Assembly (NCBI GenBank): GCA_030765505.1
Contig: JAVCCL010000010.1
Location: 1-50,468 of the forward strand
Direction of reading: 5' to 3'
DNA length: 50,468 bases
Source: Candidatus Kaelpia imicola
GTDB lineage: Bacteria; Omnitrophota; Gorgyraeia; Kaelpiales; Kaelpiaceae
Of the stretch, positions 5,232 through 7,672 are shown piece after piece. Below the pieces are notes generated by a model. It was not told the origin of the DNA, did not search any database, and worked only from the letters and a program-made list of their open reading frames with translations. Each line of letters opens with the position of its first letter. The first letter of the stretch is position 1. The translations under genes and the position numbers were made by a program.

Positions 5232-5519
5232 TTATCCAACACTAATTTTTAGATAAGAATTCACAAGCTCTTCTTTTTTCTTTCTACTCATCCTCTTTAT
5301 CTCTAACTCTTTCATGAATGCTCTTTTAAAATATTTATACTTCTTAACCCAGGTTAATTTGACCGGTCTTCTATCTTTTGTATATTTAGCCCCTTTACCG
5401 CTATTATGCAGCTTTATACGCGCTTCAATATTATTTGTATAGCCGGTATAATAAGTTTTATCTTTACACTCCAGGATATAGACGTAGAAGCTATCTCTGC
5501 GTTTTATTTTACCCCGCAT
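5232..5519 (-). CDS. GIY-YIG nuclease superfamily protein (UPF0213/YhbQ-like)
   Basis: 95 residues, the usual length for stand-alone single-domain GIY-YIG proteins. The core reads YVYILECKD, then YYTGYTNN, with the conserved Arg in NIEARIKLHN and a KYTKDRRP segment. Homologues are predicted to cut DNA at branched or damaged sites, but most are uncharacterised. The start codon lies two bases after the stop of the upstream 477-residue gene and lacks its own Shine-Dalgarno, which suggests translational coupling. It is not part of a homing intron or insertion sequence here: no interrupted gene or terminal repeat surrounds it. Confidence 0.85.
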   Translation of the reverse strand: MRGKIKRRDSFYVYILECKDKTYYTGYTNNIEARIKLHNSGKGAKYTKDRRPVKLTWVKKYKYFKRAFMKELEIKRMSRKKKEELVNSYLKISVG

Positions 5520-5521
5520 AG

Positions 5522-6955
5522 TTAAATAGCTTCTGATCTGTTTTTATCAATATAGCCAATCAGCAACTCCCTCTCCCTATCATTGGGCTCTGATTCTCTT
5601 AAATATTCTAAGGCCCTGGAGAAATCTCCTTTTATAGCATAATGTAATGCCAATAAAAAAGAGCTATCGACAGGGATTAGCAGAGATATCTCATTATCCA
5701 AAGAACTCAAAGACAGATTTTTGAGGCTTGCAGAGACCACGCAATCCTCATTGTCAAACATTTTCTCTCCATTAAATCCCTGCTGCAATCTATTCAGAAT
5801 GCCTGCCTCCAATAAATACAAGCCTAATAGCTCATAGATATTGGGAGCTTCTACTCTTTTTAACCTGACTATATTTAATGCTTCATTATAAGTTACTTGC
5901 CTTAATCCATCTTTTAAGAAGAAGGATGTAACGATGTTGAGAGGCTGCTGTTCTCTCTCTGGCATAATATTCAGCCTCTCTCTCTTTTCTCTTAAATCAG
6001 CCCTGAATCTATTTAACTGACTTAAAGCATACTTTTTAGTGTTGCAATCAAAACTAACATCTACCCCTGTTCTCTGACGAAGAAACGATAAGAAACTCTT
6101 AAATTCAACTGATATGTTCTTTTTTAACTCTATGAATCTTTTAATGTTGAGAGATTCTATATTATTTTCACTCAATAGAAAAGATATATAATCAGAGTCA
6201 AAATCTTCAACATAACATATAAAATCAAAAGGAATCTGTAATTTCCAATCGTCGAAAGACTTTAAATATTCATCCCAGAAGCGAGTAAAAACCTCATATT
6301 TAGGTATCTCCTTTCGATAAAAAAACTTCTCCTCAAGACTGCAAGGTGAAGGATATGATCGGTTAAAATACTTCAAAACATACTTAAGGTCTATAGAATA
6401 AATATCCCCTTTTTTATCTAAAATCAGATGATAGAATGCATCTTCTCTCTTATCTATTAACCAATGGAAAATGTGTAATTTTATTATCTCTTCTTGCTTC
6501 TGCCTCATGATTAATGGGTCCACCAAATCAATGCTTCTATCGGCTTCAATAAATCTTTGAATAGAGCCATTGATATTTCTACCATTTATAACCAGGGAGA
6601 GACGAAAAATTTCAGGGCTATCTATCCCAAAAATATAGGCCAATTTGGCAGCAGTCAAAGCCTTCCCTGATTCTCCCTGTTTAAACAACCATAGGTTGCC
6701 ATCAGAACCCCGAAGAAAGAATTTAACGCTCTCCCCTCCTAATATCGGCTGATCGTCGGCTATCTCAAAAATTAATCTATTTAAAAACAGTTTGTCAATT
6801 CTCTGAATAGAATCATAGATTTTAATAATCTCTGAGATAGAACCATTATAGCTTCGCTTCTCTATCAAACAAAAAACTATAACAACAAAAAGAACTGTAA
6901 ATATACAAAAGAAGCTGTATAAAGCTCTCTGAATGTTATTTTTATTATATCTCAA
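5522..6955 (-). CDS. membrane-anchored protein resembling a degenerate PI3K/HipA-fold kinase
   Basis: 477 residues, not a family I can name. Residues 11-31 are a hydrophobic anchor, so the rest is probably extracytoplasmic. Residues about 75-195 look like the PI3K/HipA-type kinase fold: a possible ATP lysine Lys92 in LWLFKQG, then a helix and LAYIFGIDSPEI, a hinge-like QRFIE, and WLIDKREDAFYHLIL (165-179) at the catalytic-loop position. Family members there usually read like GNxDRHxGN. Here Glu171, Asp172, Ala173 and His176 take those places, while the later metal aspartate survives in SID (Asp189). Loss of activity is therefore predicted. The C-terminal third is helical and ends with a TPR-like ALHYAIKGDFSRALEYL. 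The only possible start is TTG at 6955, because an in-frame stop lies just upstream. It is coupled to the GIY-YIG gene downstream. Confidence 0.6.
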   Translation of the reverse strand: MRYNKNNIQRALYSFFCIFTVLFVVIVFCLIEKRSYNGSISEIIKIYDSIQRIDKLFLNRLIFEIADDQPILGGESVKFFLRGSDGNLWLFKQGESGKALTAAKLAYIFGIDSPEIFRLSLVINGRNINGSIQRFIEADRSIDLVDPLIMRQKQEEIIKLHIFHWLIDKREDAFYHLILDKKGDIYSIDLKYVLKYFNRSYPSPCSLEEKFFYRKEIPKYEVFTRFWDEYLKSFDDWKLQIPFDFICYVEDFDSDYISFLLSENNIESLNIKRFIELKKNISVEFKSFLSFLRQRTGVDVSFDCNTKKYALSQLNRFRADLREKRERLNIMPEREQQPLNIVTSFFLKDGLRQVTYNEALNIVRLKRVEAPNIYELLGLYLLEAGILNRLQQGFNGEKMFDNEDCVVSASLKNLSLSSLDNEISLLIPVDSSFLLALHYAIKGDFSRALEYLRESEPNDRERELLIGYIDKNRSEAI

Positions 6956-7036: not shown

Positions 7037-7672
7037 TCATTGAACCTTTTTAGCAATTATCAGAAACAGACTAAACTTTCCCATCTTTCCTCTATCGTCA
7101 GGCTTTACTACTTTAGCTGCTGTAGTATCGTAAACATCACAAAAACTCACTTCTTTTAAAAGTCCCTTCAAATTCTCTCTATCAAATCCATAATGAAAAA
7201 GTCCATCCTGATTATTATGGTACCTACCATCCTCTTTATCTAAATCTGAGATGCAGAGATAACCTGGGCTTTTTAGTAATCGATAAAACTTTACAAGAAG
7301 AGAGCCTACATCTTCTATATGGTGAAGCGTCATATTAGTTACTATTAGATCATACTCTCCTCTTAAGATACCTTCAGCCTCAATATCAAAGCAGAGTGTT
7401 TTCGTATTTTTTATACCTTCTCGCTCAATCTTGCTATTTAAAACGTTGAGCATGCCTTCTGAGCTATCAACCCCCACTATAGAACGCACAAAAGGCTGCA
7501 GTTTAAGGGTAAAGAGACCGGTGCCGCACCCAAAATCAAGGATATCCATATCAGACCGCAGCACAATATGGCTTGATAAAACATCAAAGAGATCATCTCT
7601 AAGTTTTAAACGTACCGGATTATCATCCCAAAAAGCAGCCTCTTTATCGAAATCTCTCTTCTCTTTATGCAT
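7037..7672 (-). CDS. class I SAM-dependent methyltransferase
   Basis: 211 residues with the class I methyltransferase fold. Motif I is ILDFGCGTG (44-52); the acidic residue ending strand 2 is VGVDSS (67-72); LCFDIEAE (about 98-105) follows; and TNMTLHHIED near 120 is the post-II segment. The substrate is unknown. Its overall pattern fits the small-molecule Methyltransf_11/25 group (UbiE/BioC-like) rather than an RNA or DNA methylase, and no neighbour fixes a pathway. The ATG start has no strong Shine-Dalgarno (GGTAG only). A reasonable promoter lies 42-70 bases upstream. Confidence 0.85.
   Translation of the reverse strand: MHKEKRDFDKEAAFWDDNPVRLKLRDDLFDVLSSHIVLRSDMDILDFGCGTGLFTLKLQPFVRSIVGVDSSEGMLNVLNSKIEREGIKNTKTLCFDIEAEGILRGEYDLIVTNMTLHHIEDVGSLLVKFYRLLKSPGYLCISDLDKEDGRYHNNQDGLFHYGFDRENLKGLLKEVSFCDVYDTTAAKVVKPDDRGKMGKFSLFLIIAKKVQ

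Follow-up and report, generated by a model that had tools for sequence, protein, structure and literature searches.

The minus strand of the window, the whole 50,468-nucleotide stretch of DNA analyzed here, encodes at positions 5522..6955 a pseudokinase-like protein of 477 residues with a TTG start codon. This protein belongs to a divergent family of membrane-anchored proteins with the HipA/FAM20/PI3K fold, which carries no name and has a patchy distribution. The fold itself is known; what is new is the family, with its membrane anchor, recurrent catalytic loss, and envelope context. We lean, by a small step beyond even chances, toward the view that the window protein is a periplasm-facing, ligand-binding pseudokinase that acts by binding and not by phosphotransfer.

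The gene, its family, and its phyletic distribution

The sequence-only reading is borne out. The frame named there, without mention of a strand, does exist, and it is identified as a gene by its homologs and its codon use. The codon-use score is 0.143 per codon, with the 27 other window genes at 0.066 to 0.237. Among the 191 open frames of at least 60 codons in the window, this protein is the sole match of a profile built from seven family members that keep the catalytic motif. The gene lies between a SAM-dependent methyltransferase gene upstream (7037..7672, minus strand; Pfam Methyltransf_23) and a GIY-YIG gene downstream (5232..5519, minus strand), and a HipB-type HTH antitoxin neighbor is absent. 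A scan for promoters and terminators found no more of them than in shuffled sequence.

The GIY-YIG flank is common to the sister species G001, where the flanking genes occur in identical order at the syntenic site. There, only ~265 bases separate the GIY-YIG and Maf genes, and these bases hold pieces of a methyltransferase gene (tblastn 2.3e-6). Fragments alone of the methyltransferase gene are thus left in G001 (L067, 7934-8199), and their presence indicates that this species lost at least the methyltransferase. Comparison of the flanking interval revealed no significant trace of the kinase-like gene. No match to it is found in any of the genomes G001 to G004, representing two other members of the genus and two others of the family (completeness 75% for G002 and 59% for G004; 97% for the window genome), so the gene looks dispensable. 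A second family member and a HipA_C protein were both searched for in the 97% complete window genome, and neither was found.

Single-sequence searches of 384 genomes of the class show matches at an E value of ≤0.01 in 15 of them, the best one outside the protein's own genome having an E value of 4.8e-20. A profile search at 0.001 retrieves 14 of the 384 class genomes and 18 of 384 phylum genomes; some genomes are common to both samples, and the rows with the weakest matches were later dropped. The counts given below refer to 19 domains drawn from 15 genomes or records. They omit L016 (G100), which is cut by a contig end, the weak or chance matches L003-L008 and L019-L021, and the weak matches L038, L071, L072, and L073 (E values of 6e-6 to 8e-4). 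Duplicates of listed loci (L025-L035, L037, L039-L041, and L043) were left uncounted.

Some of these loci have peculiarities of their own. L047 is recorded under Clostridia, while the rest of the family is found in Omnitrophota, and its contig may be misbinned. The homolog at L010:1501-2373 in G149 is broken by an in-frame TAG, and a second, uninterrupted homolog is found elsewhere in the same genome. Two very large Omnitrophota frames, L071 (2952 residues) and L073 (9042 residues), contain a stretch that resembles the kinase catalytic region (E values of 6e-6 and 7.6e-4, respectively); in L071 it reads NPDLHQENFL and then HIDHETAF. L072:1108-2703 in G410, a 532-residue frame with a lipoprotein-like N terminus and a weak match to the family profile (E value of 3.9e-4), is a possible surface kinase-like lipoprotein.

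The kinase fold and the degenerate catalytic loop

Taken alone, the window protein has no real match in Pfam (TPR_2 at an E value of 0.58), no family in NCBIfam, and nothing real among PDB sequences (tryparedoxin at an E value of 1.1), and it does not reach the curated cutoff of HipA_C (PF07804). Its homolog L002 from genome G017 passes that cutoff (33.4 bits versus 30.5). L002, which is the same protein as L046, reads WLLANYDAHAKNFLI...RIDNDGAF and retains the classic NYDAHAKNFL and IDNDGAF motifs. The relationship of the window protein to the family is beyond chance. It is detected with an E value of 4.1e-44 by a family profile from which it had been left out, and with an E value of 1.2e-33, over residues 54-296, by the profile of the seven members with an intact catalytic Asp; in the latter case there is a small bias, as the alignment of these members had included the window protein. 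In hhalign comparisons with ten Omnitrophota HipA_C proteins, the family without L002 gives a P value of 4.1e-4, nine degenerate members give 1.7e-3, and the window protein alone gives 0.08; the controls, one reversed and five shuffled, range from 0.37 to 0.76. Matches of the family profile to PDB sequences are weak (E values of 0.32 for FAM20B, 0.76 for FAM20A, and 0.77 for FAM20C), and the Fam20C profile of Pfam matches neither the window protein nor the homologs tested.

The fold assignment comes from a structural model of this relative. AlphaFold2 modeled the L046 domain from five sequences, the window domain among them, with a pLDDT of 64.7 and a pTM of 0.64. Among 1000 chains compared, limited to those that Foldseek had ranked, the top match is PI4KII-alpha (Z 9.8, rmsd 3.7, 195 aligned residues), followed by FAM20A (Z 8.2, rmsd 4.4, 198 aligned), the Golgi casein kinase FAM20C (Z 8.1, rmsd 4.1, 187 aligned), and CtkA (Z 8.0, rmsd 4.4, 171 aligned), and then by VPS34 and further kinases of the PI3K type; HipT reaches 6.8. 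Although top Z values of 8 to 9.8 barely exceed the background, which is usually 7 to 8, the fold claim is convincing because a single kinase type fills the top rows. Foldseek alone gives the L046 model no match below an E value of 0.001, its best match being CtkA at 0.021. The model of the full-length window protein itself is too poor for a verdict on the fold (pLDDT 51.3, pTM 0.31) and is quoted here for the N-lobe only: in 49 of the 50 rows displayed, residues of about 61-138 align with the N-lobes of kinases. By homology to the modeled relative, the assignment of the window protein's domain to the PI3K/HipA/FAM20-type kinase fold is well supported, and the relative's model matches the very folds (PI4K, FAM20, and CtkA) against which the PI3K/HipA-like layout noticed in the sequence was to be checked.

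The kinase-like domain, whose fold is predicted from the relative's model, occupies about residues 56-300 (6056..6790, minus strand). It contains the predicted nucleotide-binding lysine Lys92 in a WLFK motif (6680..6682, minus strand), a G110-I111 helix end, the degenerate catalytic loop DKREDAFYH at residues 168-176 (6428..6454, minus strand), and the predicted metal-binding Asp189 (6389..6391, minus strand); the sequence-only reading had placed all of these elements correctly, and its numbers for Lys92 and Asp189 are exact. The loop had been described there as degenerate, and L002 bears this out, having an intact NxDxHxxN (NYDAHAKN) at precisely that position. Residues 169-176 of the window protein read KREDAFYH instead of the catalytic NxDxHxxN. 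Glu171 occupies the position of the catalytic Asp, His176 that of the loop Asn, and Lys191 that of the second Asp of the DxD motif; altogether, Lys169, Glu171, Ala173, His176, and Lys191 stand against Asn, Asp, His, Asn, and Asp in L002. The kinase fold is thus combined with replacement of the catalytic Asp, the Asn, and the second Asp of DxD, and the absence of the usual catalytic residues, as judged from the alignment, is well supported. Positions that are invariant in an 11-row alignment (K78, W89, K92, G110, N124, G130, and D189) are intact in the window protein. The C-terminal part (residues 301-477; 5525..6055, minus strand) is helical, with a weak TPR-like stretch at residues 433-454 (E value of 0.58); clear TPRs are present in the relative L012.

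Conservation of the two nucleotide-site residues had been predicted, and they are indeed nearly universal in the family: position 92 is Lys in 17 of the 19 domains (Glu in L047 and Arg in a G088 fusion protein), and Asp occurs at position 189 in 18, the same G088 fusion having Glu. The catalytic Asp and both loop Asn residues are found in only 7 domains, and the other 12 are degenerate. Eleven of these 12 have Lys92 and eleven have Asp189, and the two columns rank 8 and 10 among the 245 of the alignment, while the first Asn of the loop ranks 116, the catalytic Asp 164, and the second Asn 118. The catalytic position itself is occupied by E, G, N, S, A, I, or P in the degenerate members, with gaps in several and Glu in 3 of the 12. 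Such retention of Lys92 and Asp189 next to a variable loop would be expected under continued selection for ligand binding once phosphotransfer has been lost.

On a tree built without the loop columns, the catalytic Asp changes state five times (4 to 6 in bootstraps), with two changes forced by well-supported branches; 165 of 500 shuffles do equally well, branches are long, and gain and loss are indistinguishable on this tree. The window protein groups provisionally, again with long branches, with the members from G390, G176, G305, and G311, all of them degenerate (support of 87/77). Four genomes encode two family domains, both motif-keeping in G324 and both degenerate in G149, G088, and G347; a motif-keeping domain paired with a degenerate one is found in none of the four.

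Membrane anchor and envelope context

Residues 13-31 of the window protein (6863..6919, minus strand) form a single clear N-terminal hydrophobic segment with a mean Kyte-Doolittle value of 2.85, in line with the transmembrane helix proposed earlier. A single signal-anchor-like segment close to the start is present in all 16 N termini checked, and the flank that precedes it is net positive in 15; the exception, G088_L013, starts inside the segment. This charge bias, together with fusions in relatives, suggests an N-in/C-out signal anchor with the domain probably facing the periplasm. In two such fusions, L047:1249-4878 (1209 residues, with TPRs on both sides) and L060:6917-9322 (801 residues), a membrane region with multiple passes precedes the domain in one protein. 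These membrane parts have no sequence match in Pfam (TPRs apart), NCBIfam, or PDB; they might be GT-C-like.

In 3 of 19 loci (G017, G311, and G390), an LPG_synthase_TM (PF03706) gene is located directly upstream of the family gene. With ~22 such genes in 27 Mb, roughly 0.03 adjacent pairs would be expected, which gives a P value of ~5e-6, or 3e-4 at four times that density, for a test conceived post hoc with the neighbors already known. The family gene of G017 also adjoins an O-antigen ligase gene. The LPG_synthase_TM neighbors and the multi-pass fusions point to the cell envelope. No glycan gene is found beside the window gene, and PF03706 has no match in the window genome; a role of the window protein in envelope synthesis is suggested by the gene context of its relatives and not by its own.

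Two other candidate links were set aside. PMT_2 neighbors in G324, G149, and G258 were downgraded as a glycosyltransferase link because such genes are common, with 18 PMT_2 matches in the window genome, and a membrane gene upstream in G267 that looked by eye like LPG_synthase_TM has no Pfam match and was not counted. A further link to the envelope that does count is found in G176, where a degenerate family member (L053:8882-10372) adjoins MraY inside a cell wall gene cluster.

Possible functions and relation to known kinases and pseudokinases

In the proposed mechanism, one N-terminal helix would anchor the protein to the inner membrane and leave the domain on the periplasmic side, where Lys92 and Asp189 would hold a nucleotide or another phosphorylated ligand like it. 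With Glu in place of the catalytic Asp, His in place of the loop Asn, and the second DxD Asp lost, the usual phosphate transfer would not take place. The protein would instead bind, in a ligand-dependent manner, a partner in the synthesis of envelope glycans or lipid-linked sugars, as the gene context of relatives suggests, and the helical C-terminal part could be the docking surface. Several points stand against this reading: the window gene lacks a glycan neighbor and looks dispensable, the protein has no HipA_C match of its own, and the model obtained for it is poor. An active partner of the kind that FAM20A has is likewise absent from the family members and HipA_C proteins of the window genome, and little ATP is available outside the cytoplasm.

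Retention of Lys92 and Asp189 in degenerate members would also be compatible with an enzyme of changed chemistry, one that binds a nucleotide or sugar nucleotide and carries out another transfer, with Glu171 or Asp172, two acidic residues at the loop, lending help. SelO, which AMPylates, and SidJ, which glutamylates, would be models for such a transfer, and PMC7948968 cites precedents of pseudokinases with other activities. However, the loop is free to vary among degenerate members and thus shows no sign of a new active site common to them, and we regard this explanation as rather unlikely. Still active but weak kinase function, in which Glu171 takes over from the catalytic Asp and a residue located elsewhere takes over from the Asn, draws on the conservative nature of the Glu substitution and its recurrence in three degenerate domains, but would have to accommodate three more changes (Asn169 to Lys, Asn176 to His, and the second Asp to Lys191), which makes it very unlikely.

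The patchy spread (14 of 384 class genomes), the in-frame TAG in the G149 relative, and the syntenic site of G001, with methyltransferase pieces alone, could all indicate that the window gene once encoded an active membrane kinase and is now decaying, devoid of present function. A run of 477 stop-free codons with gene-like codon use, the integrity of the invariant positions, and a catalytic loss that recurs in 12 of the 19 domains and spares the nucleotide site all argue against such decay, which we consider improbable. A regulatory role toward an active kinase from its own family, in the way FAM20A serves FAM20C, is brought to mind by the fold match of the relative to both proteins, and we give it hardly any credence. 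FAM20A-like activation of an active paralog in the window organism is unlikely because its genome contains neither a paralog nor a HipA_C protein, and mixed pairs are found in none of the two-domain genomes.

Binding without phosphotransfer remains the favored reading for the window protein. It can be extended, tentatively and with the chances clearly against it, to a wider picture in which Omnitrophota possess a FAM20-like family of extracytoplasmic kinases that work with membrane glycosyltransferases and lipid-sugar transporters and have repeatedly surrendered phosphotransfer while keeping ligand binding. Such a family would be an independent bacterial counterpart of the kinases and pseudokinases of the animal FAM20 set, and the window protein would be a pseudokinase that stands alone, without the need for an active paralog. 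A membrane-anchored family of this fold, with motif-keeping and degenerate members in one phylum, would make it possible to test the conversion of a kinase into a binding protein and to ask what maintains kinase folds that face a periplasm poor in ATP. The family also offers a handle on envelope building in Omnitrophota, a phylum without an isolate in culture as of PMC10066038; the available text of that paper describes the lifestyle and giant frames of these bacteria and contains no mention of HipA.

The literature found on bacterial pseudokinases deals mainly with Ser/Thr-type and tyrosine-type kinases and Legionella effectors, some of these (pseudo)kinases grouping with FAM20 and CotH (PMC9758233). 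In the text available, a survey of HipA-type kinase families does not contain the word transmembrane (PMC8262856), and a survey of bacterial Ser/Thr pseudokinase families does not include HipA (PMC12599244). No membrane-anchored bacterial pseudokinase family of the HipA/FAM20 fold was found in searches of open-licence PubMed Central full text. The sequence-only reading had called such a protein unusual, a description to be qualified, as FAM20A is a known secreted animal pseudokinase of the same fold (PMC7948968).

With the HipA_C kinases (PF07804: HipA, HipT, and CtkA), the window protein shares the fold and the order of the WxxK strand, the Gly-Ile-x-x-Pro helix end, the position of the NxDxHxxN loop, and the metal Asp. 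It differs from them in the N-terminal membrane segment, the degenerate loop, the lack of a HipB-type neighbor, and the absence of a PF07804 match; in the HipBA and HipBST toxin-antitoxin systems, a soluble kinase is combined with a HipB-type HTH protein, whereas the window protein has an N-terminal hydrophobic segment. EcpK of Myxococcus is of the tyrosine-kinase (BYK) type, with a different fold and a location on the cytoplasmic side. Like the window protein, it is a bacterial pseudokinase, and it has been proposed to be a binding-based scaffold for exopolysaccharide synthesis (PMC12004946). EssB/YukC differs from the window protein in being of the Ser/Thr-kinase type, with all three motifs degraded, and part of a secretion apparatus, but is also bacterial and single-pass, with a pseudokinase domain that acts as a scaffold (PMC12599244). 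The spore-coat kinase CotH (PF08757) is bacterial and resembles FAM20C; it keeps the catalytic Asp (PMC12189002) that the window protein has lost, and there is no significant match, L002 scoring a weak 15.3 bits against a cutoff of 23.8. FAM20A, B, and C differ from the bacterial window protein in sequence, with no significant match (E values of 0.32 to 0.9), and FAM20A has an active partner, whereas the window genome shows none. Nevertheless, FAM20A has the same fold as predicted from the relative's model and is likewise described as devoid of kinase activity, being a secreted pseudokinase that activates FAM20C (PMC7948968).
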